64,000 nucleotides of DNA from Neoscytalidium dimidiatum. Taxonomy: Eukaryota > Ascomycota > Dothideomycetes > Botryosphaeriales > Botryosphaeriaceae. The stretch's first letter is position 1. Each line of letters begins with the position of its first letter. The position numbers and the translations under genes are program-made. Below are positions 10,009 through 42,240 of the stretch, one piece after another. The stretch is taken from positions 3,906,001 through 3,970,000 of the forward strand of contig CM074696.1 of NCBI GenBank assembly GCA_037367355.1. The letters are read 5' to 3'. Below the pieces are notes generated by a model. It saw only the letters and a list, made by a program, of their open reading frames with translations, was not told where the DNA came from and did no database searches.

Positions 10009-10013
10009 CAACC

Positions 10014-10220
10014 TATTGAACTAAATGGTCGATGGGGTGCTATATTAAGCAGTAATGATAAGTAGAATAAATAAATTGGCATGCTGGTAAAAAATACCGA
10101 ATAAGGGTAATTATATATATTTAGTATACGCTAATAAATAAGCGAAATTAGTAGCGGAATTAAATATAAAAAGAATATACTATAGTAATAAAACGACGAC
10201 TATAATACTAGTATTTAATA
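10014..10220. repeat. Left LTR of the outer element (207 bp)
   Basis: Begins TATTGAAC and ends GTATTTAATA. It aligns over its full length with 40,652-40,858. Inverted termini TATTGAAC / GTTTAACA fit an original TGTT...AACA. The first 75 bp keep CA and TG; the rest is RIP-converted. Confidence 0.88.
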
Positions 10221-10548
10221 TACCCTCTTCGTAAGATATATAGAATCTTATAAAAAGACCGTAGAGAGCTTACTAAAAGCTTATAGAAGTATTATAAGTA
10301 CGTATTAATAAATAAAATTAATAATTTTATAGTTTTCTAGGTAGTTAGAAGCGTAAAGAACGAAAAAATAAAGAGTATAGTAGTAGAAAGATAGTTATAT
10401 AACGTAATATCTATATAGAATACTAGTAAATAAGATACTAATAATCTTTATAGAGGAAAGAAAGTTAATTATAGAGTAAGAATAGTAAATATATAAAGAA
10501 CGTTTTCTACTAGACGGTTAGTAAAAACGTAACGTCTAAATATAGTAG

Positions 10549-10550
<2 letters not shown>

Positions 10551-10578
<28 letters not shown>
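10551..10578 (+). repeat. (TTTA)7 microsatellite, possible LINE tail
   Basis: Seven perfect TTTA units. On the minus strand this is (TAAA)7, and it lies just beyond the 3' side of minus-strand LINE sequence, so it could be that element's simple-repeat tail. Confidence 0.55.
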
Positions 10579-10580
<2 letters not shown>

Positions 10581-11384
10581 GTTTTTATATAAGCTAAGCT
10601 TATAAAAGACGGCTAGTCTACTAACGTATCTAGTCCGGTATTTCGACCGGGGTTTTTATTCTAATTTTCTTCGAGAAGAAGTCTAGAAATAGTAGAGGCT
10701 AAGCTAGTACTTTTTAGAAAGAAATAAGAAAATAAGTAGAAGAGTAGAAGGAGTAGAGAATAACGCTAAGAAAAATAGAAGAGGATAATTCTTTATAGAG
10801 AGAGACTAAAGTTAGTTTTTTAAAAGTATATATTTAGGCTTCTATCGAAGTAAGTTCTAATAGTTACTTTCGAGTAGCTATTTTAGTTATCGATAAAAAG
10901 CTTAGAAGAGTCTTCCGTCTATCTTTAATATTAAAAATAAGGTCTAGAAAGGGGTTTTTTATTTCTAGACTAGTATATATATTTTCTCTTTTAAGTCGAT
11001 AATTTTTATAGTCTAGAATTAGATACCGAGGAGTTTATTTAGCCGTATTATTATATAGATAATAGTTAGAGGGGCTTAATTCGAAGCGGTTTAAATAGAA
11101 TTTAAAGTAGCTATATTCTATTTTAAGCTAGTAAAATACGGAGCTAGTTTTTCTTTTCGTAGAGAGGTCTATTAGCTTACGTTTTATTTTCTAGTTAAAC
11201 CGCCGTAGATAAAACTCTTTAAAGGCTATTTTCTCTTACTTATTCGCTATTTTTTACTATAAATTAATAAAGTCTACTTACGTTAATATTCTAAAGAATA
11301 CGTAGCTAGTAGATTTATTATTTAGGTTTATTTTATAGGCGTATTTAGCTAGGAAATCTACTTCTTTATTACTACGTATATTAG
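10579..11384 (-). mobile_element. LINE 3' portion with RNase H remnant, RIP-mutated
   Basis: Minus-strand reading at about 11,384-11,320 gives SNKEVDFLAKYA, matching the conserved GNExAD.LAK part of LINE RNase H domains. The rest to 10,579 is unassigned 3' sequence. The sequence is interrupted at 11,384 by the minus-strand Ty3-type element and appears to resume at 19,507, where joining the two sides gives an in-frame RNase H stretch across the target site. Confidence 0.5.
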
Positions 11385-12119
11385 TATATATAACGACGGG
11401 GCCTCTACTACTAGACTTCGGAGTTACCTAGTAGATTTAGTTTTATTAAAGGGTTTACCTTAAAGACGAGGAAAGAAGAGCGATAATAGAATAAGAAGTT
11501 ACGTAACGTAGAAGTTTAGTAGGTCTTATTATCTCTAAGTTAATATAGTATTAAATTAGAACTTTAAGTTTAACTATAAGAGTTAAAAATACTATCTAGT
11601 GAGCGTATTTATATACTATAAGAAAGCTATAATAATCTAGACCGATACTACTAGATTAATACCGTTAGATTAATAGTATTAGATTAGGGGATTTAGATTA
11701 GATTAATCTAAGTAGATCGTATAGCTATTATATAATACGAACGCTTAAGTCTAATTTCTAGTTTCTAACTTCTAATAGTACTAGTAGATAATACTATTAC
11801 TATATTTTTATCTTATAGTACTTACTCTTATCGGCTTTCTATTTTCTACTTATATAGTCTCTTATCTTCTATAAGCTTTTTATTAGACCGTATCTTCTTT
11901 CTAGCTACTATATCTATAGGCGTTCTTTCTATATAAGCGGTAGTTATTATCTACTAGTATTTTCGTACGCGCTACTATCTCGTACCTCTAGTCTTTTTAT
12001 ATAAGACTAAAGAGCGCAGCTCTATAAGACGTAGAGTCTTTAAGGCTCTACAACTTATTCTCTTATACGGGCTTACGATTCTTATAATTATAAAGCCTAT
12101 ATATTTAGAATTTATAATA
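11385..12119 (-). repeat. 3' LTR of copy 1
   Basis: About 731-735 bp. The inner end is TTTATAATA at 12,119; next to it the minus strand carries the purine-rich tract expected before a 3' LTR. The outer end has four extra bases (TATA) relative to the other LTR copies, so the start is 11,385 or 11,389. Confidence 0.78.
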
Positions 12120-15100
12120 CTATCTTCCTCTTTAGAGATCTTTAGTTTAAAGATTCTTCTATTTCGTCTATATCTTACTTTTTTTTTCTTTCGTTCTCTT
12201 TTTCTTTCTATAAGCTCTCTACTATATCTTTAAAACGTAAATATAATTTATAGAAGGCTAAGCGTAAGTCTCTAGATATAAAGATTAACTTATTAGATAT
12301 CGTAATATCTATATTCTATTCGTAGTATTTATTACTAAATACTTATCGAAAGATAGAGAAGCTAGAGATAAAATATTACGTAGCTCTAGATTTTTCTCGT
12401 TATAGCGAATACTACTACGCTAGTTATACTAGTTATAATACTAGCGGTTTAGAGAATTCTAATTATTTGTTCTTTCTTAGTTATCTTATATAACTACTAA
12501 CTTCTTTTCTAGTTAAACGCCTTCGGCGTATCTTAGATAGAACGTATTCTAAACGTACTATCTTTAAAAATTAGCTCTAGAAAGTAGCTTCTAGATTATC
12601 TTATACTAAGAGGTAATAGAAATTACTCGAGCGTTATACTATCTTAATACTATAACGTAAGTCTAATATAATTAATATACTTAGAAAGTTAGAGGCGTTA
12701 GAAGCTAAAAATCTAGTTAATCTTAAAAACGCCGAGGGAGAGCGATTAGTAAAGCGTATACGTAGCGACGTCTTAGCTAACGCTATTATAAGTCTATTCT
12801 ATTCTATTAAATCGCCTAGTATTAGTTCTACTACTACGCCGTCTAAGAGTTCTAAGCTAGTCAATTAGACGCGATAGTCTTCGTTTTCTAATTTTAATTT
12901 TAGGTCTTTTATTTTTAACGAGTCGACGGTATTAGTTAATCTAGATTTCGGCGATAGAACTTATTAATAAGTTATTTATATCTATTATAGTTTTCTAGCG
13001 ATTTCTAGATATTATTTTATTCTTTCTTCTATTTAAGAAGGTATTAGAATTAACTATCGATATAGCTACTATTAAAGACTTTCTCTACTTTCTAGTCTTA
13101 GTTTTCGTCGGCGTCTAGATTTTCTAAAAGTATTTTCTCTATATAGATTATAGTTTTAGCGTTCTTTAGTACTAGTTCTAGAAGAGATATATAAAAAAAT
13201 AGGGTATATCTATATTATTTCTAGTAATTTAAGATAAAAGTTAACTTTTCTAATTCTTTCTTTAATTTAGAATAGTTCTATTTTCTTAAAATCTAGCTTA
13301 TTATTTAGTCGCCTTATTCTAATATTTTTTCTAAGAAGGTAAACTTTATTCTTCTTCTTTAGCTACGATATCTTCTAATACTATTTATCGTAGTATTTAT
13401 CTATTTATAGGGCTATAAATTCTAGATCTAGATATAGTTATTTATAGAGTATCTTTAGCTAGTTAGCTTTAAGAATTTCTTTTTAGACTAATAATTTACT
13501 TAATATCGGTTCTTTATAGGCTAATAGCTTATAACTATAATTAGCGTAGAATAGTAATTCTTATATTACCGATACTTTAGAGCTATTATACGCAAACTAA
13601 ACTAATAATAGTAATTCTATCTAGTTATTCTATACGTAGTTAAGATAATAGCGTAGATATTATTCTAACGTCTAATTAGTTCGTTTTATTTATCCGTCTA
13701 TTTATAGATATATCGTAGTTAAGAGCTTATATTTTACTCTAAGTTATTTAATAAGAGTCTACTAGAATCGTAATATAAATAGTTTATTTTTATCTAATAT
13801 AAGTTCTTTAAGTAGTCTATAGTTACCGAGAATAGTTTTTAGAAACGTATATATAAGATCCTCTATATTTACCTTCTTTAAATATAGTAGGTAATACGTA
13901 TATTTTATTATTCTATCTACGATAATTAGTACTAAATTATATTTAACTTTAATAAGTAGTTCTTTTAACTTAGATAGGTTCGTAATAAAATCTAGCGAGA
14001 TAGATTACTAAGAGCGCTTAGATACCGGTAATAGCTAGAGTAGTCTATAAAGTATATATCTTACTATCTTACTTTAAATATAAAGATTATATTATATAAT
14101 TATCCGCTAGACTATTCTTTTAAGCTTTAGAAAGTAGTAATTTCTTATAATCCTCTTAATCGTTTTATCGGTTTCTTAGTAACTATATACTAGAGCCTTA
14201 TATATATCTTTTATAAGTTCCTTCTATAGTTTTACTAGAACGTAGATTAATTCTAAAAATAGAATTATTCCTTCTACGTCTTTAGTTACTTAGAGGTTAT
14301 TTTCTAGATTTCTAATTTCTTATATTATAGCGTCTTTTATATAAGCTTTTTAAATTCTATAATCTTATTTATAGCTTTCTAGGCGTATCGCTAAAGCTAC
14401 TAGTCTAACTAAGATAAGCGACTTTCTAGGCTTCTTCTTTCTATTATATATAGCGGAGATCTAGCGCCTATTAGATATAAAAAACTCGTCTTTTTATTCT
14501 ACTAGTATTATTAGCTATAGTTCTCGCTTTTCTTTTATATAGTCGGCTCTTTTACTTAGTATATCTACGCGAGTATTCTCTAATTCCTTTTAGTAAATAA
14601 TCTTTATATTATAGAATACTAGCTCTTTAATCTATCTAATCTATCTTTAGTTTAGTTCTTTCGTAGTAGTAAAGTATAAAAGGTTTTTATAGTTATAATA
14701 GACTATAATCTAGTACTTAGCTTTTTTAAGATAGTATCTCTATTCTTTAAAGATTATAATAATAGCTAGAAGTTCTTTATTATAGATATTATAGTTCTTT
14801 TCTAGACCTATTATTTTTTAAGAGTAATACGCGATAGAATATAGTTTATCTTACTCGTCTAGTTAGCTTAAGACTACTTTAATAGCGTAGTCTAATATAT
14901 TAGTTTCTACTATTATAGATAGATTAAAATAGAATAGTTCTAAGACTAGTACTTCTATAAATATTTATTTTAGTAAATTGAAAGTATTTTATTATCTTTC
15001 TCTCTATATAAATCTATATTTCTTTTTAGTTAGATCTATAAATAGAGCTAATATCTTTATATAGTTTAGAATAAACTTCTAGTAAAAGTTAGTAAAGCTA

Positions 15101-16189
15101 AAAAAAGATTATACTTCTTTAATAGTTTTTAGCGTAGGCTAGTCTCTTATCGTATTTAGTTTCTTTTTATCTATACTAATATATTCTAGAATAATAACGA
15201 ACTCTAGATATTTAGTTTTCTACGTATACTATTCGTTCTTATTAGAAGCTATCTAGAGGTTTTATTTCTTTAATATCTATAAGACTTTATATACGTACTT
15301 AGTATATTTCTTAAGCGTTTCTAAGTATATTAGAATATTATCTAGATAGGCTAGTACGAATATATTTAAGTATAGTCGTAGTATATTATTAACTAGGCTC
15401 TAGAACGTAGCTAGTATATTAGTAAGCCTAAATAGTATTACTATATACTCGTAATATCTAAATCTTATTTAGAAAGCTATTTTTTATTCTTCGCCTTCTT
15501 TTATTTAAATAAGATAATAATCTTTTCTAAGGTCTAGCTTAGTAAAGTAGTTAGCTTTTCTTAATCTATTCTATAATTTATTAATATATAATAACGAATA
15601 TTAGTTTTTTATTATAATATCGTTTAGTTATCTATAATCGATATAGAGATAGAGCTTACTATTTTTCTTAGATACGAATAAAATAGGATATCCGGCTAGT
15701 AATATAGAAGATCGAATATATTCTCTTTCTAGATTCGTTTCGAGATACTCTCTTAGTACTTTAGCCTCGTTTTTTAAAAGAAAATAAATAGGCTTAAATA
15801 TAGGCTACGTCTCTAGTAATAGAGATATCTTATAGTTTTATAGCTTATATTTAGATAAAGATTCTTTATCTCTTTCTTAAAATAGTTTAGCGTATCTTTA
15901 GAATTCTAAAGATACTTTCTCTAGTCTCGTAGTATTTTCTATTATATATATCTAGTTAAGAATTCTATCTAGCAAGCTATACCTCTTATAGATTCTCTTT
16001 AAATAGTCTTCTCTAAGTAGCTAGAGAGTATTAACTTCTAGAGCTCGTTTTCTAATCTATACTATAATTCGGCGTTCTTATTTTAAGCTAGGCTTAATAT
16101 AGGCGACGTAAGCTTATTTTTCTTATTTTTTTATACGTAGTAGGGCGTTAAGAAATATCTCTTTAGCCTCTATTAGATATTTTTAAAAT

Positions 16190-16340
16190 AGCTCTAGCTC
16201 GTAGCTCTTTTAGCTTTAGCTTTTTAGCTTTAGCTCTTAGCTCTAGCTTTCTAGCTTTAGCTCTCGTTTCTAGCTCTTTAGTTCTAGCTCTTAGCTTTAA
16301 CTCTTTAGCTCTAGCTCTAGACTCTAGCTCTCTAGCTCTT
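16190..16340 (-). repeat. GAGCTA/AAGCTA low-complexity coding repeat in copy 1
   Basis: Irregular tandem TAGCTTTAGCTC/TAGCTCTAGC units. It is the inverted counterpart of the array at 34,486-34,665, between protease and reverse transcriptase. Confidence 0.75.
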
Positions 16341-18773
16341 TTACTTTAAGGTTTACGAGATATCGCTTATAGTTATCTTTTAGAAATATTATAGTTTCTA
16401 TACTCTAGCTAATATATAGATTATAGATTTTTAACTAAGATATTCTAAAGACGATATTATAGTTTAGGCTTATTATTACGTCTAGATTAATTCGTTCTTT
16501 ATAATCTCTAAGAGTTATTTATATTTAACCAGTCTTAATTCTTATCTACTTCTTATTATATTCTATTAATAACCTATTAAATATATTAAGTTCATAGAGG
16601 CGTTTCTTAGATTAGAATAGTAAGTTATTCTTTCTAAGAAATTTAGAATCTATAAAATTTTCTTATACTCTACTATTAATTATTATTAACGTAGTAGTTT
16701 CTTCGATAGTAACTAGTACTTCTAATAGCGTTTTAAGTTCTTTCTATTTATAAGATATTTTATTTAATATTAAGTATATAATCTAGTTAAAAAATCTTCG
16801 TATTAGTTTCTTCTAAAGTTTCTAGCTAGAAGAGCCGTCTAGTTTTTTAATATCTTATAGCGTATATACTTATTCTATTCTTTAACTAGAATTAGAGCTT
16901 TTTTCTACTAAGTCTATTATCTCTATTTAATCTTACGTTTCTAGTAGATTTATTTATTACGTATCTAGTATTAAAAAGTTAGTTTACTATATTTTTTATT
17001 AGGTATTTATTATAGAATATTATAACTCCGCGTAGCTATATTATAGTAGTAGAGAATATAGACTATATCGCATAGAGACGTAAGATCTTATTACTACTAT
17101 ATTCTTTAGACTTCTTCTTTAAGCTAGAATACTACCTTGTTAGCTATTTTTAATAGCGATTTCTTTTAGAAGTACTATACGTCGTTCTTAAAAAATTATA
17201 AACTAAGTTTTCTATTCTTTATCTAGTACTATTATAGTAGTAGATTTATTCTTAATCTTAGAGTCTAGTAGATCGTAAAGATATAATTAAATTTAATATT
17301 TCTTATATCTTTATACTAGTTTAGATATTCTATAATCTAGTTAAGTATAGCCTAGTTCTACTATTATTTAATAGTTTCTATCTTATTAGACTCTAGTATA
17401 CTATTATATAGTTTTTTAATTTTACTATTTATAAGATCTTTATTAGCTAGAAAGTATCTTTTAATATCTTTCTTTATAGCCTCTTCTAATTTTCGAAGTA
17501 TTATATTAAGTCGTTGTAGCTTACTAGAATACTACTTTATAGCGTTTTTATCGCTCTAGTAGATAGTATAATTATTATCGTAATACGCTATCTAGCTTAG
17601 AGCTATATAGTCTACTATCTTTATAGCGGTAATTTCTTATAGCGCCTTTTATTTCTAGATAGCTACTATTATTTTCTATAACTCTTTCTTTAAGTATTTA
17701 TATTCTATACTTTATTTATCTCTATATCGAATATATAGTTCTTTTTTATAGAGCTCTTTTTCTTTCTTACTCTATTTTCTTTTCTTACTTCTATTATTAT
17801 CGTTCTTCTTATTCTTACTTTTATCTTATTAGACTATATTATCTATTTCTATAGCGTCGCCTTTTTTCTAAGTATAGTAAGGCCTAGCTTATCTTAAGAT
17901 ATTAGCGTTATACTCTTTCTTATCGAACTATCTCTCTATATAACGCTTATCTATAAGTAGAGCTAGCTTAATTATATCGTTAAGAGTTTCTAGTTTTTTA
18001 TAGTATATTATAGCTTCTTTAATCTTATTTTTTAGCTCTAAGTAGTAGAAGATATATAGCGTAAAATTAAAGTATCTATCTACGAGATATACTACGTCTT
18101 AGAATTTAGCTATATAATTCTATATTATTTCTTTCTATTTTAGACTTATAAGGGTTCTAGTAGCTAGACGATTCTTATTAACGCCGCTAAAGACTATCTT
18201 AAGCTACTTTATAAAGTTTTAGTAGTTACTAAAGATTATTAAGATTACTTTAAACTATAAATATATAGGTTTCTTCTAGTACTCCCACTTAAAAAATTAA
18301 AACTATTATTCTATTAATTCTCTAAGGTAGATACTAGCGTATAGAACTTATTTAGCGGGGCCGGCGAAGTTATCGTATATAAAGTATATATAGTTATTTA
18401 GCTATATAATAAAGACTTAGATCTTTTTTTAGTCTTCGTAGTATAGGTCTAGCTTTAAGATCTTAATCTTAATAGCTAGTAATAGAGCTAGTATCTAGAT
18501 AAACTAAATATATAGAATTATATTTTTATTTTAAAGTTCTAGAATTATATTAAGTAGCTTCTTATTAGTCGATATATTAGAGTATTAGTTTTCTACTACT
18601 ATACTATATTACGGTAGTTACTACGAGCCTAGAATATTCTACGCCTCTTATACGTACTTACTACTAGATACGTCTACTATAATAGCTAATACTATTAGTA
18701 CTTCTTAAAGTAAAAGAATACTTTCTATTTTCTAATTAAATCGCTTTCTTTCTTATAAGGATAGTAGTTAAAG

Positions 18774-19506
18774 TATAATAACGAGGCCTCTACTACTAGA
18801 CTTCGAAGTTATCTAGTAGGTTTAGATTTATCGAAGGATTTATCTTAAAGATAAAGAAAGAGAAGTAATAATAAAATAAGAAGTTATATAATATAGAAGT
18901 TTAGTAGGCCTTATTATCTTTAAGTTAATATAGTATTAAATTAGAACTTTAAATTAACTATAAGAGTTAGAATATTGTCTAACGAGCGTATCTATATACT
19001 TTAAGAAAGCTATAATAATCTATTAGATAGTAGAGAATAGTTAGTATCCTCTATTATCTATACGTAGTAGAGGATAGCTATAATCCCTTGTTATCTAATA
19101 GATTTAATAGATTCTACGTAATCTAGGCGCTAAAGCCTCTTTTCTAGAATCTAACTTCTACTAGTACTAGTAGATAATATTATCGCTATATTTTTATTCT
19201 ATAGTATTTATTCTTATCGCCTTTCTATTTTCTATCCGCGTAGTTTCTTATTCTCTACGAGTTCTTTATTAGACTATATCTTCTTTCTAGTTACTACGCC
19301 CGTAGGCGTTCTTCTCGTACGAGCGATAGTTATTACCTACGGGTATTCTTATACGCGCCGTTATTCTATATTTCTAGTCTTTCTATATAAGACTAAGAAG
19401 CGCGGCTCTACTAGGCGTAGAGTCTTTAAAGCTCTACGGCTTATTTTCCCGTATAGGCTTATAGCCCTTATAGCTATAAAGCCCGTATATTCTAAGATTT
19501 ATAATA
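18774..19506 (-). repeat. 5' LTR of copy 1
   Basis: 733 bp, TATAATAACGAGG at the inner end and ATTTATAATA at the outer end. It aligns with the LTRs at 11,389, 31,329 and 38,725. Just inside, the minus strand reads CTTTAACTACTATCC, identical to the corresponding site in copy 2 and probably the RIP-altered primer binding region. Confidence 0.8.
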
Positions 19507-21480
19507 GTTAGACCGCTATATAGCTATAGATAGATTTTATATATATAGAGTCTATAGCTACGTAGCGGCCTCGCTATAAATCTATATAAAAAGAAAGCTA
19601 CGTACGCTAGCTTTACTTTAGTACTATACGTATTCGCTACTAGTAACGTATTAGAGCTATCTTAGAGGATTCTTAAAAGCGTTATTTAATAGAAGTATAT
19701 TTTTCTTCTTTACTCTTTTTACTACTACTCTTCTAACTTCTATAGCTTTTTCTAAATTAATTTTAATCTTCTTTATTCTTATTTATCTTTCTTTAACCTC
19801 TTCTTTTTTAATCTCCCCCGCTTTTATAATATCTCGTAGTCGCTTCTTTAACCGCTCTTTTTTCTACGCTAGTAGCTTTAGAAATACGCTATCTAGTTAT
19901 TAAATTAGCGCCTTAAACGTTAATTCTACTAAAGTAATAGCTTAGATAAATATTAATATTTCTTTAGCTTAGCTTACTATAGTAAGATTAGAATTAGTAA
20001 GCTAGCTAACTTATAGCGTTCTTTTTAGATACTTAGTATCTCTCTATCTAGTTATACTAAGCTAACGTTAATTCCTTCTAGCTAGCGCCTCGCTAGTAAT
20101 TTATTTCGGACTTTAAAACTCGTAACGTCTAAGCTAAGCGAGTCGCTACTAAAGTAGTAGTTCTTTTTTAGCGATCTTCTTTTATCTTTCTTAATAAGAG
20201 CTTATTTTAGCTTTAATATCTTTTCTCTAGCGTTTACGTCTAACTCTTTTACTTCTATACTAGAACGTTAGTTAATCCGTCTTAAGTTTATAATCTTTTC
20301 TACTCTTATTAATATTTTAGATAATAAGAAAAATAAGTACTATAGTAATAAGAGAGATAAAAATAAGAAGAAGAAGAAAAAGATACGCGCGCTCTAGCGT
20401 AAGCTAGCTAAAGATAAAATAGCCGCGGATATTAAAAATCTAGTAGATATAGAGTATCTTAGAAATACTCTAGATATTAACAGCCTATTATTATCTTCTC
20501 TAGGCTCGTAGTTTTTTAGTAGCGGTATTCTATCTTCTACTAAAATAAAAATAGAGGTTAAGAATCTCTACTAGACTATTCTATTAATTAGCTTAATACT
20601 AGAGTTTAGCTAAGCTTATATTAACTATCTTAGTAGTAAGCTTATTTTATAATAGATTCTTAATTTTACTAACTCGCTAAATCTTGCTCTCTAGTCTAAT
20701 CTATACGTGCCCGTCTATATATGTTATCTATAATAGTAGAGTAACGCTAAAAAGGCTAGTAAGGCTATTAGTAAGTAGATAAAATATCTATTTACCGTAT
20801 ATAATTATAGAGTATTTTTAAAGTACTTTCGCTACGTTTACTATAGTAAAAGCTATAATAAGGTATATAATATTTACTATTAGGTTATTTAGGTTCGTTA
20901 GCTAACTTAAAAATTCTCTTTTTTTTTAAATTTCCCTCTAGTTCTACTAGGCGTTAAATATATTCTTCTTTATCTATAACTACGCCTTTTTTAGCGTCTA
21001 GCTAGCGGGTAATAATATTTTCTATACTAGTTAAGACGTTAATAGTGTACTAGTATATATTTAAAAGATCTATAATATCTATATATTCTAATCTTATATA
21101 ATAGCTAACTAGATTTAGAGTAAGAATAATATAGTAGCGTACTTTTATAACTAGATCGTAAGCTAGTAGCTTAACCTCGCCTAGTATTAAATAAAATATT
21201 CTTAATACGCTTATAGATAGTTTATACTAATCTATAGTATTTTATAGAAGGATTATAGCTTAGTTAGTCGGCGTACCGCTAATAATCTAACGGTTAATTA
21301 TAACTTTAAGAAGAAGTATTTAGATTAGCTAATATTCTTCTTATCGTCTAGAACGTTCTAGATATTACGCTAGATATAGTATAAGAATATAGTATAAAGG
21401 TATTTTTTTTATTTATTATTATAGGTTAGAGTTATTTTACTTTTTAACTATATTTTTATAGCGGGTTATAGTATTTAGTA
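19507..21480. mobile_element. Unassigned RIP-mutated transposon sequence
   Basis: No LTRs recognised. The first part may continue the LINE RNase H on the minus strand. Around 20,300-20,900 the plus strand reads unusually openly for this block, with a lysine-rich stretch (NKRDKNKKKKKK) followed by ADIKNLVDIEYLRNTLDIN. A Tyr/Ser/Lys-rich segment near 20,800 could be a RIP-altered Cys/His cluster (Cys to Tyr by G-to-A). It could be a Gag- or ORF1-like protein of another element. Family not determined. Confidence 0.3.
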
Positions 21481-27400: not shown

Positions 27401-27700
27401 TTTAAGCGTTATCTTAATACTAACTTTACGCGTTATTAAAGCCGGAGATACTAGCTCTTAAATTAATTTTATTAGGGTTTAAAGCTTTTAGTAGTATTAA
27501 GTCTCTTTACGTTAGTATAAAGAAGAAAACTATTAGATCTTCTTTAAGAATATCTATAGGCTCTATATCTATATAATCGTTAGCGGGCGTATAGAAGTTT
27601 AAAAGAAGTTCTAAAAAGATTTCTTTAGTATTAGCTTAATAGAACGCGTATAAATAATAGCGAGAAGATATCTCTAGCGACTAGCCGTCTTTTCTCTAGT
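21481..27700 (-). mobile_element. Second, different Ty3-type chromodomain retrotransposon, RIP-mutated
   Basis: Minus-strand motifs in order from high to low coordinate. Gag-like sequence lies at about 27.3-26.5 kb. The reverse transcriptase has LYVNFRGLNYIIIKD near 25,353-25,310 and FTKLDLRNAYY near 25,240-25,210. The integrase core has ILDSIILNRESVFTSEY near 22,850-22,800, and its C-terminus ends FYISLLKKYF near 22,150. A chromodomain-like YLIKxKDxLAKYNK segment is near 22,050. A purine-rich tract on the minus strand at about 21,510-21,485 probably marks the start of the 3' LTR. The two LTRs could not be aligned, so the ends are uncertain. It differs in sequence from copies 1 and 2. The 385-bp solo LTR interrupts it after the RT. 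Confidence 0.65.
23999..24383. mobile_element. Un-mutated 385-bp solo LTR inserted in RIP-damaged DNA
   Basis: Begins TGTTACGG and ends CGGCGTAACA, with perfect TGTTAC/GTAACA inverted ends. It is flanked by an exact ACTAT target duplication (23,994-23,998 and 24,384-24,388). Its composition is normal, with many CA and TG dinucleotides, unlike the sequence on either side. It holds a TATA-like TGTATATAGA near 24,211 and a perfect 14-bp palindrome GATCAGTACTGATC at 24,150-24,163 followed by related half-sites. A complete element must have inserted after RIP had damaged the host element, then recombined out, or a lone LTR-sized element was inserted. Confidence 0.92.
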
Positions 27701-27929
27701 AGAAATTATAATTGAATCGAATATAAAAACCGTATAGTAGATAGAGAGTTAATAGAGAAATAAAGAACTTATATTTATAAATAGATAATTCGATAGAGAG
27801 GAGGTTTTAGTAGGCTAGCCTTAGTTAAAGTTTTATCCTCCGCTTAGCTACTAGAGTTCCGCTAGCGATACGTTGGTAGTCTTCTTTCTACGTTAGTCTC
27901 TAGCTATTTATCTATCTACGAGCCGGCGT

Positions 27930-30900: not shown

Positions 30901-31328
30901 TAAGAGCGTACGAAATACGTTCTTAAATATACGGACTTCGATAGCGAGAATTAACTTAGTAAAATCGATTTTCCCTTTTATCGTATATTCGTAGAAGATA
31001 GTAAGAAGTTCGCTAAGGTTATTAGCCTTAGACTAGTTATCTTCGAGGTTAATTACCTTAATAAGATAGTTAAACGCGGCTTTAATATATTTCGCGGAGG
31101 ACTTTAGTTTTAATTCCGGTATATACCGGGTTCTTTTCTTAGGACGGTATTCGAACGGGTTAATACCCGTAGAGATAGACGAGAAGAAGAGTCTTTTTTC
31201 TAGAGTTAGCGTAGACTCTACTATTATCGTTACTTATTTAGAGTCTTTTAGCCTTCTAGATAGTAGTATTATTTTATTATTTTCTATCTTAATATTATTA
31301 ATACTACTAGAACCCGTAGTATTTAAGA
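27930..31328 (-). mobile_element. LINE ORF2 (endonuclease and reverse transcriptase) and upstream part, RIP-mutated
   Basis: Minus-strand motifs in the right order for a fungal Tad-like LINE. An endonuclease segment IDLTLSSRELINKI is near 29,393-29,350. The reverse transcriptase has SYRVISLLNYLEKVLE near 28,370-28,320, LFLNVRGVYNYIT near 28,163-28,121 (the LFLDVxGAFD motif with RIP substitutions) and YFTNTISNLLLNAG near 27,980-27,935 (the QGSPLSPxLF region). The catalytic FADD part that should follow is missing below about 27.93 kb, where sequence related to the second Ty3-type element begins. Upstream, 30.3-31.3 kb may encode ORF1. The plus-strand Ty3 copy interrupts it at 31,329. Confidence 0.58.
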
Positions 31329-32054
31329 TATTATAAACTTTAGAATATACGGGCTTTATAGCTATAAGGGCCGTAAACCTATATAGAAAATAAGCTAAAA
31401 AAGGATCCTACGTCTAATAGGGCCGTATTTCTTAAACTTCGTACGGGAAGACTAGAAATACGAGACGACGGCGCGTATAAAATACTAGTAGATAATAACC
31501 GTCTATATAAGAAGAACGCCTACTAGCGTAACGACTAGTAAGAAGATATAATCTAATAAGAAGCTTATAGAAGATAAAAAATTAAGCGAATAGAAAGTAA
31601 AAAGACGATAAGAGTAGATACTATAGAATAAAGATATAGCGGTAATATCGTCTACTAATACTAGTAGAAGTTAAATTCTAAAAAAGAGGCTTTAGTATCT
31701 AAGTTACGTAGAATCTATTAGATCTACTAGATAATAAAGAATTATAGCTATCCTTTATTACGTATAGATAATAGAGAATACTAACTATTCTCTACTATCT
31801 AATAGATTATTATAGCTTTACTATAGTATATAAATACGCTCGTTAGATAGTATTTTTTAACTCTTATAGTTAAACTTAAAGTTCTAATTTAATACTATAT
31901 TAACTTAGAGGTAATAAGGCCTACTAAACCCCTATATTATATAACTTCTTATTCTATTATTACTTTTCTTTTCTCGTCTTTAAGATAAACTCTTTAATAA
32001 AATTAAATCTATTAGATAACTTTAAAGCCTAGTAGTAGAGGTTCTATTATTATA
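31329..32054 (+). repeat. 5' LTR of copy 2
   Basis: Begins TATTATAAAC and ends ATTATTATA, followed directly by CTTTAACTACTATCC, the probable altered primer binding region. Aligns with 38,725-39,449 in the same orientation and with both copy 1 LTRs in inverted orientation. Confidence 0.85.
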
Positions 32055-34485
32055 CTTTAACTACTATCCTTATAGAAAAAAAAGCGATTTAAATAGAAAA
32101 TAGAAAGTATTTTCTCTCTCTAAGAAGTACTAATAGTATTAGCTATTATAGCGGACGTACTAAGTAACGAGTACGCGCAAGAGGCGTAGAATACTCTTAG
32201 CTTATAGTAACTGCTATAATATAATATAATAGTAGAAAACTAACACTCTAATATACCGACTAATAAAAAGCTATTTAATATAATTTTAAAACTTTAAAAT
32301 AAAAATATAATTCTATATATCTAGCTTATCTAGATACTCGCTTTACTACTAGCTATTAAGATTAAGATTTTAAAGCTAGATCTATACTATAGAGACTAGA
32401 AGAAGATCTAAGTCTTTATTATATAGCTAAATAACTATATCTACTTTATATATAGTAACTTCGCTAGCTCTACTAAATAAGTTCTATATACTATTATCTA
32501 CTTTAAAGAATTAATAAAATAGTAGTTCTAATCTTTTAAGCGCGAATACTAGAAGAAACCTATATATCTATAGTTTAAAATAATCTTAATAATCTTTAGT
32601 AACTATTAAAACTTTATAAAGTAGCTTAAGATAGTCTTTAGTAGTATTAATAAGAACTATCTAGCTATAAGAACTCTTATAAGCCTAAAGTAAAAAGAAA
32701 TAATCTAAGACTATATAGCTAAATTCTAAAACGTAGTATATTTTATAGATAGATACTCTAACTTTACGCTATATATCTTTTACTACTAAGAACTAAGGGA
32801 CGAAATTAAAGAAGCTATAACGTACTATAAAGAACTAGAAACCCTTAATAATATAATTAAACTAGCCCTACTTATAAATAAGCGTTATACGAAAAGATAG
32901 TTTAATAAGAAGAAGTATAACGCTAATATCTTAAGATAAGCTAGGCTTCGCTATATCTAGAAAGAAGGCGACGCTATAAAAATAGATAATATAGTCTAGT
33001 AAGATAAAGATAAGAATAAGAAGAACGATAATAATAAGAGTAAGAAAAGAAAATAGAGTAAGAAAGAAAGAGAGCTCTATAAGAAAGAACTATATATTTA
33101 ATATAGAGATAAATAGAGCGTAGAATATAAATATTTAAAGAAAGAGTTATAGAAAGTAGCGGCGACTATCTAAGAATAAAAGGCGCTATAAGAAATCGCT
33201 ACTATAAAGATAGTAGACTATATAGCTTTAAGCTAGATAGCGTACTATAACAATAATTATACTATCTACTAAAGTAATAAAGATGCTATAAAGTAGTACT
33301 TTAGTAAGCTACGATAACTTAATATAATACTTCGAAAATTAAAAGAGGCTATAAAGAAAGATATTAAAAAGTACTTTCTAGCCGATAAAGACCTTATAAA
33401 TAGTAAAACCGAAGAACTTTATAATAGTATACCCGGATCTAGTAAAGTAGAAAATACCAAGTAATAATAGAATTAGGCTATACTTAATCGAATTACGGAA
33501 TATCTAAATTAATATAGAGATATAAAAAACGTTAAATTTAATTATATCTCTATCTATTAGACTTCTAGATTAAAAATAGATCTACTACTATAATAGTATT
33601 AGATAAAGAATAGAAAACTTAGTTTATAATTTTTTAAAAACGACGTATAGTATCTCTAAAAGAAATTACCCTTAAAAATAGTTAATAAGATAGTATTCTA
33701 GCTTAAAGAAGAAGTCTAGAGAATATAATAGTAGCGAGACCTCGCGTATCTACGCGATCTAGTCTATACTCTTTATTACTACGATATAGCTACGTAGAGC
33801 TATAGTATCCTATAATAGATATATAATAAAAAATATAGTAAACTAACCTTCTAATACTAAATATATAACGGATAAATCTATTAGAGATATAAAATTAAAT
33901 AGAAATAATAGACGTAGTAGAAAGAAACCTTAATTTTAGTTAAAGAATAGAATAAGTATATCCGCTATAAGATATTAAAAAACTAGACGGCTCTTCTAGC
34001 TAGAGACTCTAGAAGGGGCTAGTACGAAGGTTTCTTAACTAGGTTATATACTTAATATTAAATAGAATATCTCGTAAATAAAAAGAACTTAAAACGCTAC
34101 TAGAAGTACTAGTTATAATTAAAAAAACTACTACGCTAGCGATAATCGATAGTAGAGTATAAGAAAATTTTATAGATTCTAAATTTCTTAGAAAGAATAA
34201 CTTACTATTCTAATCTAAGAAACGTCTTTATAAACTTAGTATATTTAATAGGTTATTAATAGAATATAGTAAGGGCTAAATAAGAATTAAGATAGGTTAG
34301 ATATAAATAACTCTTAGAAACTATAAGAAATAAATTAACCTAGACGTAATAATAAGCCCGAACTATAATATTATCTTTAGAATATCTTAGTTAAAAACCT
34401 ACGATCTATATATTAACTAGAGTACGGAAACTATAACGTTTCTAAAAGATAACTATAAGTAATACCTTATAAATCTTAAAATAAA

Positions 34486-34665
34486 AGAGCTAGAGCTAGA
34501 GAGCTAGAGCTAAGAGTTAAAGCTAGAAAGCTAGAGCTAAGAGCTAAAGCTAGAGAACTAGAAGCTAAAGCTAGAAAGCTAAGAGCTAAAGCTAGAAAGT
34601 TAAGAGCTAAAGCTAGAGAGCTAAGAGCTAGAGCTAGAAAGCTAGAGCTAAGAGCTAGAGCTATC
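34486..34665 (+). repeat. GAGCTA/AAGCTA low-complexity coding repeat in copy 2
   Basis: Irregular tandem of GAGCTA, AAGCTA and GAAAGCTA units about 180 bp long, between the protease and RT regions, rich in Glu/Leu/Lys codons. Confidence 0.78.
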
Positions 34666-37600
34666 TAAAAAGTATCTAGTAAAGACTAAAAAGATATTCT
34701 TTAACGCCCTACTATATATAAAAAAATAAGGAGAATAAGCTTATATCGTTTATATTAAGCCCGGCTTAAAATAAGAACGCTAAATTATAATATAGATTAG
34801 AAAGTAGACTCTAGAAGTTATTAAGCCTTAGTTACTTAGAGGAGACTATCTAAAAAGAATCTATAAGAGATATAGTCTACGAAATAGAGCCCTTAACTAA
34901 ATACGCGTAATAGAAAATACTATAGAACTAGAGAAAGTACTTCTAAAATTCTAGAAATACGTCGAACTATTTTAAGAAAGAGATAAAGAATTATTATCTA
35001 AGTATAAGCTATAGAACTATAAAATATCTCTATTACTAGAAACGTAGTCTACGTTTAAGCCTATCTACTCTCTTTCTAAGAACGAGGCCGAAGTACTAAG
35101 AGAGTATCTCGAGACGAATCTAGAAAGAGAATATATCTAACTCTCTACGTTACTAGCTAGATATTCTATTCTATTCGTATTTAAAAAAAATAGTAAGCTT
35201 CGTCTTTATATCGATTATAGATATCTAAACGATATTATAATAAAAAACTAATATCCGTTACTATATATTAATAAATTATAAAATAAACTAAGAAAAGCTA
35301 AATACTTTACTAAGCTAGACCTTAGAAAAGGTTATTATTTTATTTAGATAAAAGAAGATAAAGAATAGAAAACGACTTTCTAAATAAGATTTAGATATTA
35401 TAAGTATATAGTAATATCTTTTAAACTTACTAATATATTAGCTACGTTCTAGAGTCTAGTTAATAATATACTATAATTATATTTAAATATATTTATACTA
35501 GCTTATCTAGACGATATTCTAATATACTTAGAAATACTTAAAAAATATACTAAGTACGTATATAAGGTTCTATAAATACTAGAGGAATAGAACCTTTAAA
35601 TAACCCTAGATAAGAGTGAATAGTATACGTAAAAAACTAAGTATCTAAAGTTTATTATTATTCTAGAATATATTAGTATAGACGAAAAGAAACTAGACGT
35701 AATAAAAGACTAGCCTATACTAAAAACTATTAAAGAAGTATAATTTTTTTTTAACTTTACTAACTTTTACTAGAAGTTTATCTTAAACTATATAAAGATA
35801 TTAGCTTCGCTTATAGATCTAACTAAAAAGAAATATAAATTTATATAGAGAGAAAGATAATAAAATACTTTCGACTTACTAAAATAAATATTTATAGAAG
35901 TATTAGTCTTAGAACTATTCTACTCTAACCTACTTATAACGGTAGAAACTAATATATTAAATTATATAATTAGAGTAGTCTTAAGCTAGCTAGACGAGTA
36001 AAATAGACTATATTCTATCGCGTATTACTTTTAAAAAATAATAGGCCTAAAAAAGAACTACGACGTCTATAATAAAGAACTTCTAGCTATTATTACGACT
36101 TTTAAAGAATAGAGATACTATCTTAAAGAAGCTAAGTATTAGATTATAGTCTACTATAACTATAAGAACCTCTTATACTTTACTACTACGAAGAAATTAA
36201 ACCGAAGATAGATTAGATAGGCTAAAGAATTAGTATTCTACGATATAAAGATTATCTATTAAAAGAAATCTAAGAACGCTCGCGTAGATACGTTAAGTAG
36301 AAGAGCCGACTATATAGAAGAGAAGCTAAAATGATAACCGGTAATACTAGTAGAGTAGAGAGACGGGTCTTTTATATCTACTAGCCGCTAAATCTCCGCT
36401 ATATATAATAGAAAGAAGAAACCTAAAAAGTTACTTACTCTAGTTAGGCTAGTAGCTCTAGCGATATACCTAGAAAGTAATAAATAGAAATATAGAATCT
36501 AAGAAGTCTATACGGAAGACGCTATAGCGTAAGAAATTAAAAATCTAGAAAATAACCCCTAAGTAACTAAAGACGTAGAAGAAATAATCTTATTTTTAGA
36601 ATTAATCTACGTTCTAGTAAAACTATAGAAGAAACTTATAAAAGATATATACGAGGCCCTAGTATATAGTTACTAAGAAACTAAGAAGATAATTAAGAGG
36701 ATTACGAGAAATTATTACTTTCTAGAGCTTAGAAGGATAGTCTAGCGAATAGTTATCTAATATAATCTTTATATTCGAAGTAAAGTAGTAAGATACGTAT
36801 TCTATAAACTACTCTAACTACTACTAATATCTAAGCGCCCTTAGTAATCTATCTCGTTAGATTTTATTACGAACCTATCTAAGTTAGAAGAACTACTTAT
36901 TAAAGTTAAATATAATTTAGTACTAGTTATTATAAATAGAATAATAAAATACGCATATTATCTACTATATCTAAAGAAGATAAACGCGAAAGATCTTATA
37001 TATATATTTTTAAGAACTATCCTTAATAATTATAGATTATCTAAAGAGCTTATATTAAATAAAGATAGACTATTTATATTATAATTCTAGTAAACGCTTA
37101 CTAGATAACTTAAAGTAAAATATAAGCTCTTAACTACGATATATCTATAGATAGATAGATAAATAGAACGAACTAACTAGACGCTAGAATAATATCTACG
37201 CTATTATCTTAACTATATATAGAATAACTAGATAGAATTACTATTATTAGTCTAGTTCGTATATAATAGCTCTAAAGTATTAGTAATATAAGAATTATTA
37301 TTCTATACTAATTATAAGTATAAGCTATTAACCTATAAAGAGCCGATACTAAGTAAATTACTAGCCTAAAAAGGGATTCTTAAGGCTAACTAGCTAAAGA
37401 TACTCTATAAATAACTATATCTAGACTTAGAATTCGTAGCTCTATAAATAGATAAATACTATAATAAGCGGTACTAAAAAGTACTATAGTTAAAGAAGGA
37501 GAATAAAGTCTATCTTTTTAGAAAAAATATTAAAATAAGGCGACTAAATAATAAGCTAGATTTTAAAAAAATAAAACTATTTAAAATTAAAGAAAAAATT

Positions 37601-38724
37601 AAAAAAGTTAACTTTCGCCTTAAATTACTAGAAACGATATAAATATACTCTATTTTCTATATATCTCTCTTAGAACTAGTACCGAAGAACGCTAAAATCG
37701 TAATCTATATAAAAGAAATACTTTTAGAAAATCTAAACGCCGATAAAAACTAAGATTAGAAAGTAGAAAAGATTCTTAATAGCGGCTATATTAACGGTTA
37801 ATTCTAATATCTTCTTAAATAGAAAGAAGAATAAAACGATATCTAGAAACTACTAGAAAACTATAACGAATATAGATAACTTATTAATAAGTTCTATCGT
37901 CGAAATCTAAATCGACTAATATCGCTAACTCGTTAAAAATAAAGAATCTAAAATTAAAATTAGAAAATAGAGACTACCGCGCCTAATTAACTAGCTTAGA
38001 ACTCTTAAGCGGCGTAGTAGTAGAACTAACGCTAGACGACCTAATAAAATAAAATAGACTCGTAATAGTATTAGCTAAGACGTCGCTACGTATACGCTTT
38101 ACTAATTATTTCTTCTTAGTATTTTTAGAATTAATAGAATTTCTAGCCTCGCGAGCTACTTTTAAACGATTTAGCTTCTCTAACTCCTCTATAGTTATAG
38201 CCTTCTTAAAAAGTATTAAGTAGACGCAATACTTTAAGAGATTCTTCTACCGCTCTAAACGAGATAAATAAGCTATTATAGCTTATATAGCTTTATAAGT
38301 CTTCTCCCGGTCCGTATAAACTTTAGTACGAGCTCGATCTAGACGATTAACTAAGGGTAAGCGTTAGTAATAGTAAGAGAAGATAAAGAAAGAACGAATA
38401 ATTAGCGGCGTTAAGACCTCCCCTATTATACGCGGTACGTCCGCGACGCGCGTACTCCTTATAGCGAGAGAAACTCTTAAAATTTATCCGGTATTCTATA
38501 GATTCCCCCTAAGAAGATAGAAGTAAATAAGAAGAGTAAGAAATAAATATTATATAGTTCTTACGGTTAATACGCTTATTTAGAAGAACCTATTTAGTAT
38601 ACTTATATTTTAGAGATATCGCGGAAGTCTTATTAGAAGAAAAGAAGAAAGAAATAAATAGAAGTCTAAGATATAGATTAAACGAAAGAATCTTTAAGCT
38701 AAAGATCTTTAAGAAGGAGAATAG

Positions 38725-39449
38725 TATTATAAATTTTAGAATATACGGGCTTTATAGCTATAAGAGCCGTAAACCTATATAGAAAATAAGCTAAAGAAGA
38801 ACTCTACGCCTAGTAGAGCCGCGCTCTTTAAATTCTATACGGGAAAACTAGAAATATAAGACGATAGCGCGTACGAAATACTAGTAAATAGTAACCGCCT
38901 ATATAAAAAGAACGCCTACGGGCGTAACGACTAGTAAGAAAATATAGTCTAATAAGAAGCTCGTAGGAAATAAAGAATTAAGCGGGTAAAAAGCGGAAAG
39001 ACGATAAGAGTAGATACTATAAAATAAAAATATAGCGGTAATATCGTCCGCTAATACTAGTAGAAGTCGAATTCTAAAAAAGAGGCTTTAGCGCCTAAGT
39101 TATATAGAACCTACTAGATCTACTAGATAATAAAGAATTATAGCTATTCTCTACTATATATAGATAATAGAGAATACTAACTATTCTCTACTATCTAATA
39201 GATTATTATAGCTTTACTATAGTATATAGATACGCTTATTAGATAGTATTTCTTAACTCTTATAGTTAAACTTAAAGTTCTAATTTAATACTATATTAAC
39301 TTAGAGATAATAAGGCCTACTAAACTTCTATATTACGTAACTTCTTATTTTATATTACTTTCTTTTCCTCGTCTTTAAGGTAAATTCTTTAATAAAATTA
39401 AACCTACTAAGTAACTTTAAAGCCTAGTAGTAGAGGCCCCGTTATTATA
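38725..39449 (+). repeat. 3' LTR of copy 2
   Basis: Begins TATTATAAAT and ends GTTATTATA. A purine-rich tract, AAGAAGGAGAATAG, sits immediately upstream as expected for second-strand priming. Confidence 0.85.
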
Positions 39450-39454
39450 TAAGA

Positions 39455-40334
39455 ATTTAATAACTATTAGTATAGTTAATAGTTAAATAGAAGTTAAGAA
39501 GCGTAGAGAGTCTAGAGAATTTAAAGAGTTCGAGAAAGGATTTTCTTAAGTTTCTATACTTTTTCTAGAGAAAAGAAAAGATAGAAATAGAAAATAAGAC
39601 TAGAAAGAAATCGCCGGCTTTAATTTTATCTAAACTAAGCTATAAATAAACGAATTTTAGGCGAGAGCGGGGAATTTTCTTAGTTACTTTCTTCTAAGAA
39701 GTAACTAAAGCGTTTTTAGCGGCTATTTATTTAAGCTTTTCGCTTATTCTCGGTTATTTTTAGTTCGTTTAGATATAGAGGTAGTAAAAACTCTACGTAT
39801 ATAGGCCGCGAAAAAGAGGTAGAGTAATAAGAAGAAGATAGTGCTTTTTCGCCTTAAATTTAGATACGTAAACGCGCTCTAAATCTAGTATAACTTAGTA
39901 TAAAAGTACGCGTAGATATTCTTCGTTAGTTCCGTAATTTTAATATATTTTTAGGTTAATTTAGAAATTTAGTAGGGGTATAGAGGTAGAAGACGGCGAT
40001 TTAACTTAATAGAGTCTCTTTTCTACGTAATAACGTAGTAGCGCGTATAGCTATAAAGTTAAGATTTAAGAATCTAGCTAAGAGAATTAAGAGCTTTTAA
40101 TAGATACTAGTCTTAGCGCTTTTTCTTAAGGTTAAGTTCGGTGGTTTTAGGGTCTTAGTAGAAGTATAGAGGTAGAGAGAGATAATTTAGTCTAACGAGG
40201 TCTCTTTTCTATATAATAGTATAATAGCGCGTATAGCTACGAAGCTAAGATTTAAGAATCTAGCTAAAGAAATTAAGAGCTTTTAATAGATATTAGTTTT
40301 AGCGCTTTTTCTTAAAGTCGAGTTCGAAGATATA
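39455..40334 (-). mobile_element. Probable 5' region of the interrupted LINE
   Basis: Removing copy 2 and one TAAGA joins 31,328 to 39,455, so this stretch is continuous with the LINE. Being upstream on the minus strand, it should hold ORF1 start or 5' untranslated sequence. No protein motif is recognised. Confidence 0.42.
39972..40332. repeat. Tandem repeat, two copies, period about 186 bp
   Basis: A unit running from ATAGAGGTAGA through GCGCGTATAGCTA and AGAATCTAGCTAA to GCGCTTTTTCTTAA occurs at about 39,978 and again at about 40,165, with scattered RIP-type differences. Confidence 0.75.
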
Positions 40335-40651
40335 GATAAGACGTCTTACTTATTAGGGCTAGATAGTATAACTAATATATATAAGGCTATTATAGCGTAT
40401 ATACTAGTATTTAACTAGCCTTATATAGTATAATCCATACGTAAAGAAAGCGTTTCTTAATAAAATAACTAAAGAGCTTTATACTTTTAGATTTAAAGAA
40501 GATATACGACTCTTAATTAAGTACTTAAATACTAGGTAGTAGTAGTAGTAAAATATACTGATACTATTATATATATTATTATCTAGATACTATAAGTTAA
40601 TTTATATATATATTACTTAAAAGATATTAATACGCGAGCTAGGCTTATAAC
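40335..40651. mobile_element. Interior sequence next to the right outer LTR
   Basis: RIP-altered DNA of unknown family between the tandem repeat and the right 207-bp LTR. It may be interior of the outer element. Confidence 0.35.
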
Positions 40652-40858
40652 TATTAAACTAAATAGTTAATAGGATACTATATTAAGTAGTAATAATAAG
40701 TAGAATAAATAAATTAGTATACTAGTAAAAAATATTAAATAAGGGTAATTATATATATTTAGTATACGCTAATAAATAAGCGAAATTAGTGGCGGAATTA
40801 AATGTAAAAGGAATATACTATAGTAATAAAACGACGACTATAATACTAGTGTTTAACA
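40652..40858. repeat. Right LTR of the outer element (207 bp)
   Basis: Begins TATTAAAC and ends GTTTAACA, exactly the same length as the left copy. Differences from the left copy in the first half are all G:C to A:T in this copy; in the last 70 bp the direction reverses, this copy keeping the un-mutated bases. Confidence 0.88.
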
Positions 40859-42240
40859 CAACCTTAGTAGCTAGGGGCATGCCTACAATTATAGTGAGCA
40901 TGAACTACAGGCTCGCAGGCCAGAGGTATCTGACGAACAAGGAATTGTTTTAAGTTGGCCTCGGGAACTTCGGTATACACGACCAGAGAATGGCTCTCTC
41001 CTGCATTCAGGAGTGTTATGGCAGGTACGCTTAGCGCGGCGCTAGCGCCGCTGGGTAGTTTGGCTCCTCCGCTCTTTCAGAGACGGAACAGACAACAACA
41101 ACAACGAATACAGATGCATACGAGGTTTTGCTCCAACAAGGAGAATATTGCGTGCCTCGGAGGTGACCCGGATCGTGTGACCATTTCCGGTGAGTTTGTA
41201 GGTACCATGTCGGTGGGCTCCCACTTGCTGGCCAATGCGGATCAAGGCGATGCAGGAAGATCTTTCAGCGCTGCGGTTGCTCAAAGCGGTGGTCCATTCA
41301 TTCCTCTCACTACTCCAAGCCTGGCCTATGTGGATGCTGTTTATCCGAGCATTTCAGATGCCGCCGGCTTTTCCAGCGCAGAAGATACGTTGGCCTGCTT
41401 GAGAACGGCACCTGCAAACACTCTCGCTGCCGTCCTCGGCCGGCATAGCTGGCCCCCGTTCCAGACGGCATTACTGTCGCCACAAACCCTGCACTCGCGC
41501 TCGAACTTGTAATTTCTCCGCCGTTCCTCTTCTCATCGGTGCCAATACCAACGAGAGAACGTCTTTTTATCGCTCTGTTGGCATCGGAGTCAATAACACT
41601 GCCCAGTACGGAGCATTATTCGAGGCCAACCCATTCGACAACCCAACCTTCGAGCTCTTAGTACAGCAGTATACCGCCCTGGATCTTTCCAAAGAACTTG
41701 GCAGCGTGAAACCTATGGCAGGGAGTTCCCTCGGCTCTCAATATGGACGGGCTTCTGTGTTTCTTGGAGATTACGTGTTCATTGCGGGTAGGCGCATTGC
41801 TTCCGAGATATGGGCACAGAGCGGCCTGCCCGTGTACAGCTATGGGTTCAATACCATGCCTGCCGGAATCCGGCCTTACGTCTTTGGCGCTGCACACTTC
41901 CAAGAGATTCCCTTCGTTTTCGACAACACCTCCGGCGCGGGGGGGAACGTCGATCAATTCGCCGTAGATCTCCCAGAGCGGAAGGCTCGGTACGAAGATC
42001 TTGCGACGCTGATGTGGATCAGCTTCGTGAGCACACAGTCGCCGAATAACCATGGTGGTAAGTTTCATGTTGGCTTCCTGCCAGTTACACTTACCACTCA
42101 ACGTCGGTATTAGTAACCATCTTTAGCAATACATAGCCTGTTTACTCTTTAGCTAATCCTACTAATATGCTTTTTGATGGTAACACTACATCGTACGTGG
42201 AGAAGGATGGCTGGAGAACAGAACCTATTCGTACGATGAG
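40859..42240 (+). pseudogene. Type B carboxylesterase pseudogene, 5'-truncated and multiply disrupted
   Basis: Alpha/beta-hydrolase family. In order: LVARGMPTIIVSMNYRLAG (oxyanion region) right after the outer LTR; a TAA at 40,951-40,953; VGLGNFGIHDQRMALSCIQE; a 125-bp insertion (41,014-41,138); NIACLGGDPDRVTISGEFVG. In the last of these the nucleophile elbow GESAG has become GEFVG: the catalytic serine codon is TTT at 41,195-41,197. Then AAVAQSGGPF and, after frame changes near 41,450-41,530, PLLIGANTNERTSFY. FLGDYVFIAGRRIASEIW follows, then GAAHFQEIPFVF with the catalytic histidine intact at 41,895-41,897. After a likely intron from about 42,056 comes a last piece, SYVEKDGWRTEP. It cannot make an active enzyme. 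The N-terminal 100 or so residues are not found left of the block. Confidence 0.85.
41014..41138. mobile_element. 125-bp TG...CA insertion (solo-LTR-like) in the esterase
   Basis: Begins TGTTATGG and ends CTCCAACA. It is flanked by exact AGGAG duplications (41,009-41,013 and 41,139-41,143). Removing it plus one AGGAG joins CIQE to NIACLGGD in frame, exactly as in intact esterases, so it is a genuine insertion. It contains a 16-bp palindrome, GCGGCGCTAGCGCCGC, at 41,036-41,051. Too short to name the family; it could be a very small solo LTR or another short element. Confidence 0.8.

Follow-up and report, generated by a model that had tools for sequence, protein, structure and literature searches.

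An AT-rich block of Neoscytalidium dimidiatum that is very probably one copia-type retrotransposon insertion enlarged from within

The stretch of Neoscytalidium dimidiatum DNA analysed here (the window; 64,000 nucleotides, C2:3,906,001-3,970,000 of a 43.76-Mb genome in 40 contigs) contains a 30.8-kb block that is AT-rich and gene-poor. GC content per 1 kb is 0.23-0.37 at 10,014-40,858 and 0.42-0.71 outside, and the outer 300 bp beside the two repeats that end the block have GC contents of 0.49 and 0.51, which places a sharp composition shift at the repeats themselves. These repeats are long terminal repeats (LTRs) of a retrotransposon family that we call O, and the block is very probably a single O insertion that was enlarged from within. 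The parts of the locus that belong to O, with both target duplications taken from the sequence and the comparison of pairs, are as follows:

10,009-10,013, no strand: left target duplication, CAACC
10,014-10,220, minus strand: left LTR of O, 207 bp (3′ LTR in coding orientation)
10,221-10,550, minus strand: O interior, element positions 208-586, with ~49 bp missing after interior base 74
10,221-10,232, minus strand: polypurine tract, at the start of the O interior
40,344-40,651, minus strand: O interior, element positions 5,126-5,435
About 40,639-40,651: primer-binding site of O
40,652-40,858, minus strand: right LTR of O, 207 bp (5′ LTR in coding orientation)
40,859-40,863, no strand: right target duplication, CAACC

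The two repeats lie in direct orientation, and the first-pass annotation had placed them and the flanking CAACC exactly, to the base. Aligning them, the check proposed there, gave a gapless alignment with 186 of 207 positions identical and transitions at all 21 differences. The termini it had reported, TGTT...AACA, occur in neither copy: the left LTR reads TATT...AATA and the right one TATT...AACA, so that TGTT is at best the state of the LTR start before repeat-induced point mutation (RIP), a defence of fungi against repeats. All 46 LTR sequences in the comparison, one for each of 38 loci and eight shorter duplicates (among them one from the window), begin with TATT. Read in coding orientation, these LTRs therefore run TG...TA, not TG...CA, reflecting either RIP in every copy or a genuine non-canonical end.

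The genome holds at least 79 candidate O LTR copies, of which 40 were scored in each search. We fetched 38 further loci, extending the end by position where a match stopped a few bases early. Left-side ends account for 26 of them, most continuing into a YACCCCCTTCGT-like sequence (L015 lacks it and was classed from its position within a pair). Right-side ends number nine, of which eight follow a CGGGCTTATAAC-like sequence and one (L032) follows CGTAACAAC. The target duplication of O is 5 bp long, since a solo LTR (L046) has GATGA on each side. The left repeat of the window is of the left-end kind and the right repeat of the right-end kind, as a single element requires. Other genomic copies, which had also been named as a check, thus support the LTR ends and the 5-bp duplication, with the interior adjoining the expected side. 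Two single O LTRs, at C2:4163315-4163522 (L040) and C8:507858-508064 (L045), have interior sequence at both sides, which suggests tandem O copies with a common LTR.

LTRs on the same contig and strand were paired by their order, either before the adjoining 5-mers were viewed or at the same time, which gave 22 pairs; the position of a few ends may be off by up to ~20 bp. The outer 5-mers are identical in 20 pairs, differ by one transition in one (GCTAA/GCTGA) and disagree in one (CAAAA/CATGC), and none of 462 crossed comparisons gave an identical 5-mer. The pairs span 5,642 to ~47,590 bp: five measure 5.64 kb, two 6.1-6.4 kb and 15 11.8-47.6 kb, and the bare 5.64-kb copies have the same ends as the filled 11.8-47.6-kb ones. 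Outside the pairs stand O ends with no obvious partner or with interior at both sides (C3:3844388, C22:1806, C11:1645690, C21:2722, C7:283105, C3:1486889, C2:4163315, C8:507858, C3:515764, C39, C31, C5:108245, C2:660384 and others).

Comparison of each LTR with its partner in 21 pairs (C1:331348-336992 left out; 11 of the 21 right LTRs partial, 151-157 bp) yielded 401 transitions over 3,751 aligned sites, with no transversion and no gap in any pair. The 420 crossed LTR comparisons averaged 1.88 transversions plus gap runs, and 116 had none. The transitions-only pairs suggest that the founders are young relative to ordinary mutation; dating by LTR divergence was dropped, the differences being RIP-type transitions. 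The earlier proposal that the block is bounded by the LTRs of one retrotransposon and grew by later insertions thus gains support from the duplications (20 of 22 pairs exact, 21 allowing one transition), from the 21 pairs free of transversions and gaps, and from two clean insertions inside the block, described below.

A complete O copy at C7:721,201-726,842 measures 5,642 bp and has AAAAG at both sides. Compared with it by blastn (word 9), the window contains element positions 1-586 (10,014-10,550, within which ~49 bp are missing) and 5,126-5,642 (40,344-40,858), and no other piece was found. The window copy therefore keeps ~1.05 kb and lacks positions 587-5,125, about 4.5 kb; its two remnants have GC contents of 0.25 and 0.22. 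In copia elements the integrase precedes the reverse transcriptase, and the primer site pairs with an internal stretch of initiator tRNA-Met. On the reverse strand of one copy (L066), a Pol_BBD-like match at 1,194 (E 1.1e-4), SH3_retrovirus at 2,091 (E 1.9e-9) and an RVT_2-like match at 3,246 (E 0.002) follow in this order, the first and last below the Pfam cut-off and the second above it; relative to the LTR order adopted in this text, these coding remnants are on the other strand. In L040, CCGGGCTCATAAC adjoins the LTR, and the same 13 bases recur in four tRNA-like 3′ halves of the genome. The primer site matches the internal part of a CAT-anticodon tRNA at 13 of 13 positions in L040 and at 10 of 13 in the window, where the rest are transitions; the initiator-tRNA reading was made by eye, and ARAGORN called no tRNA-Met there. 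Because of the domain order in L066 and the primer site beside the right-hand LTR, O is classified from its sequence as a copia-type element lying on the minus strand here, with the right LTR as its 5′ LTR. An intact coding region was not found: L022, L028, L047 and L066 give only short stop-free pieces.

O resembles Ty1/copia in its two direct short LTRs, 5-bp target duplication, initiator-tRNA-type primer site and integrase-type domain ahead of the reverse transcriptase; it differs in that the window copy keeps only ~1.05 kb and that the O copies checked for GC are RIP-degraded. The first-pass annotation had read the outer element as small, with an interior that may measure only about 650 bp, which does not hold for a family whose complete copies measure ~5,642 bp and carry coding remnants; the window copy is a remnant. 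Terminal-repeat retrotransposons in miniature (TRIMs), which in the part of the source consulted share the short LTRs and short interior of that first reading (PMC4717578), were ruled out on the same evidence, the family being 5.6 kb long with pol remnants and its short interior a secondary loss. An element already small on insertion (interior ~640-690 bp), with a later element, X, entering its internal junction, would account for the window's O remnants summing to a ~640-bp interior. We consider this very unlikely: X would have to strike the exact 586/5,126 junction, these positions are joined in none of the fetched O copies, copies traceable on the 5′ side pass 586 or break elsewhere (479, 1,070-1,388, 2,426, 3,684 and others), and the window matches the complete copy in two pieces only.

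The space between the two O remnants is filled by five further elements, X, A, B, D and E:

10,551-11,384, minus strand: X, similar to a long interspersed nuclear element (LINE), reversed; (TTTA)n tail end
11,385-19,506, plus strand (relative to B only): A, LTR element of ~8.1 kb, with LTRs at ~11,389-12,119 and 18,774-19,506
19,507-27,937, plus strand (nominal): D, LTR element without its left ~0.9 kb; right LTR at ~27,722-27,937 (216 bp)
23,999-24,383, no strand: E, 385-bp solo LTR in D, GC 0.53; target duplication ACTAT at 23,994-23,998 and 24,384-24,388
27,938-31,328, minus strand: X, middle part, ending in the left TAAGA of B's target duplication
31,329-39,449, minus strand (relative to A): B, relative of A in opposite orientation, 8,121 bp; target duplication TAAGA at 31,324-31,328 and 39,450-39,454
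39,450-40,343, minus strand: X, 5′ end part, with a 172-bp tandem duplication (39,969-40,140 / 40,155-40,326)

B and E are nested insertions whose order is fixed by empty sites elsewhere in the same genome. The halves of X around B are separated by exactly 5 bp in X copies on C27, C30 and C31, and the halves of D around E overlap by exactly 5 bp in D copies on C5 and C26. In the window X opens on (TTTA)n, which is a (TAAA)n tail read in reverse, and on C7 a copy of X sits in O between ~9-14 duplicated bases. At the place that A and D take up in the window, four other X copies carry a stretch of 1,242-1,244 bp, and D extends further left in L009, L023 and L063. Pfam gave no match for five X pieces or for two plus-strand X pieces, and no credible match for pieces of A, B, D and X, so that A, B and D are labelled here only as LTR elements; in look they are integrase-like.

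All parts of the block except E have TpA/ApT ratios of 1.56-1.96 and (CpA+TpG)/(ApC+GpT) ratios of 0.00-0.18; the flanks have 0.63-0.67 and 1.24-1.28. The block is thus depleted in CpA and enriched in TpA, and paired O LTRs differ by transitions only, from which we infer that RIP was its mutator. E is nearly free of RIP inside fully RIP-mutated DNA. It matches in full at 22 other places, with an identity of 96-100% at 21 of these. Five older matches lie at 80-84%. In Neurospora the length threshold of RIP is near 400 bp; E may be too short for RIP, or too recent.

The composition of the landing sites distinguishes O from X. In the 300 bp outside O, GC is at least 0.38 at 25 of 26 left ends, and the right-end flanks reach the same value in 20 of 21 cases (8 of 9 at 300 bp and 12 of 12 at ~350 bp). 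Past the tail of 20 X copies, the 300-bp GC is at most 0.35 in 16 and 0.50-0.54 in four; this sample comprises the best-scoring full-tail copies (C35, which begins at query base 11, excluded), picked by similarity to a RIP-mutated query, a possible bias. These values fit founders that landed in gene-rich DNA and followers that mostly entered AT-rich DNA.

Immediately to the right of the block lies a gene remnant that bears on its origin:

40,861-42,062, plus strand: carboxylesterase pseudogene without its N-terminal ~165 residues, with a weaker piece to 42,223

An open reading frame (ORF) at 40,955-41,509 matches the COesterase domain (E 1.4e-12); a protein search with the esterase ORF gave no match at E 0.001. 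Similarity to four paralogs in the same genome extends from 40,861 (from 40,876 for the fourth) as far as 42,062. It is spread over several frames, includes at least one stop and begins at the codon holding the ACC of CAACC, where all four paralogs have threonine. An esterase gene interrupted by the block was considered as proof of the empty site and rejected: joining the flanks adds just three aligned residues, with alignment scores of 61, 92, 63 and 55 for the joined flanks versus 58, 87, 60 and 53 for the right side alone. The left flank was likewise ruled out as a repeat, since it matches only itself in the genome. Inside the remnant, ~41005-41146 is a short repeat to which about 100 of 118 protein-level genome matches are confined; it is possibly a small mobile element in genic DNA.

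Several observations weigh against a single insertion that grew from within. The left flank does not contain the N-terminal part of the esterase, whose remnant sets in at the target duplication, so that the joined flanks give no evident intact ancestral gene; the first ~150 residues of the four paralogs are unmatched anywhere in the window above 24 bits. Within the block, A has X at its left and D interior at its right and is not a clean insertion, and O lacks 4.5 kb between two X ends with no duplication there, a loss that could be a deletion made with the X insertion or recombination between two X copies. The transitions-only result of the window pair is common to six of 20 other LTRs per side and is weak alone. 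Finally, the pair at C6:1791395-1813093 (L025, L057) has unrelated 5-mers, which means that exchanges between copies happen.

Such an exchange, or a deletion, could have joined two LTRs from different insertions of the same family at this locus, with the matching CAACC a coincidence. The esterase remnant, cut at the boundary of LTR and duplication with its missing part not across the block, would then find an explanation, and the C6 copy offers a parallel: the 5-mer on its right, CATGC, recurs as the one on the left of C3:1486889 (L041), as if the C3 and C6 copies had swapped halves; no far end turned up for the C3 copy. We nonetheless regard this origin as improbable, given that two 5-mers agree by chance in only ~1/1,024 cases and did so in none of the 462 crossed comparisons, and that an orphan esterase N-terminus ending at such a junction was not seen within 10 kb of the listed O ends (48 matches, inspected by eye). 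For the esterase itself, either the gene was cut before O arrived, or its N-terminal part was deleted just outside the duplication, or the LTRs stem from different insertions. A single insertion is retained as very probable because a chance 5-mer match has a frequency of ~1/1,000 and because 21 of the 22 pairs show the pattern of single insertions. It predicts the empty-allele junction ...GTCGCAACCTTAGTAG..., with one CAACC between ...GTCGTGGTCG and TTAGTAGCTAGG.

The history that we propose from these data begins with a copia-type O of the 5.6-kb family, which would have entered gene-rich DNA on the minus strand, duplicating CAACC, and would have been mutated towards AT by RIP. The LINE-like X would then have entered O in reverse orientation, followed by the LTR elements B, D and A, entering X or D, and by the solo LTR E within D. 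In the course of these events O would have lost 4.5 kb, X ~1.24 kb and D ~0.9 kb; the simplest route to the X and D losses would be recombination between direct A copies, one in X and one in D, removing the stretch between them. LTR identity over the aligned part is 77% for A and 88% for B, which fits this recombination account, although RIP noise is large. Since the block would have grown inside O, its edges would be exactly the founder's LTRs.

Nested, RIP-mutated AT-rich blocks are already known; what is new here is a nameable founder family, present both bare and filled. In the parts of the report consulted, AT-rich blocks of Epichloe festucae consist of RIP-mutated repeats with complex nesting, for which its authors suggested transposition into existing repeats (PMC6218096). 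They share with our block the nesting and the sharp distinction from gene-rich DNA, and differ in being defined by composition and nesting, with no founder with target duplications named as boundary. The genome "fissures" of Pyrenophora teres (PMC5915480) and the AT-isochores of Leptosphaeria maculans (PMC4210507), as described in the sections consulted, are likewise variable isochores rich in AT, set between GC-equilibrated DNA that is syntenic, and are built as mosaics from truncated transposable elements that RIP has degenerated; in our case the outermost element is identified, with base-exact bounds and with bare and filled copies in one genome. A block bounded by its founder's target duplications was not seen in the portions covered of these three reports, nor in those on A. 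flavus AT elements (PMC9910759), Pseudocercospora (PMC13041039), Zymoseptoria tritici (PMC9970103) and Botryosphaeriaceae genomes (PMC8336260), which is no proof of absence from print.

AT-rich compartments in fungi are as a rule delimited by composition. Should founder LTR ends form their borders, each block would gain a site of origin, an empty allele that can be predicted and an order of the events inside it. We tentatively suggest, as a possibility that falls short of an even chance, that one copia family systematically founds AT-rich blocks: it would land in gene-rich DNA, be RIP-mutated and then serve as a landing site for other families, the borders being founder LTR ends and the copies of 5.6-47.6 kb forming a growth series that could be ordered and dated. 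Borders formed by founder LTR ends would make it testable whether a block begins through chance insertion into gene-rich DNA, and whether RIP-mutated DNA attracts insertions or merely tolerates them; the bare O copies are a natural starting point.

Further to the right, the window contains a Kri1 gene, whose closest named matches are Macrophomina phaseolina (83%), Lasiodiplodia theobromae (79%), Neofusicoccum parvum (79%), Diplodia corticola (77%) and a partial Botryosphaeria dothidea protein (83%). These genera belong to the Botryosphaeriaceae, which on this evidence is the probable family of the host. At 43539-43800, two adjoining direct copies of 133-134 bp are 99% identical.

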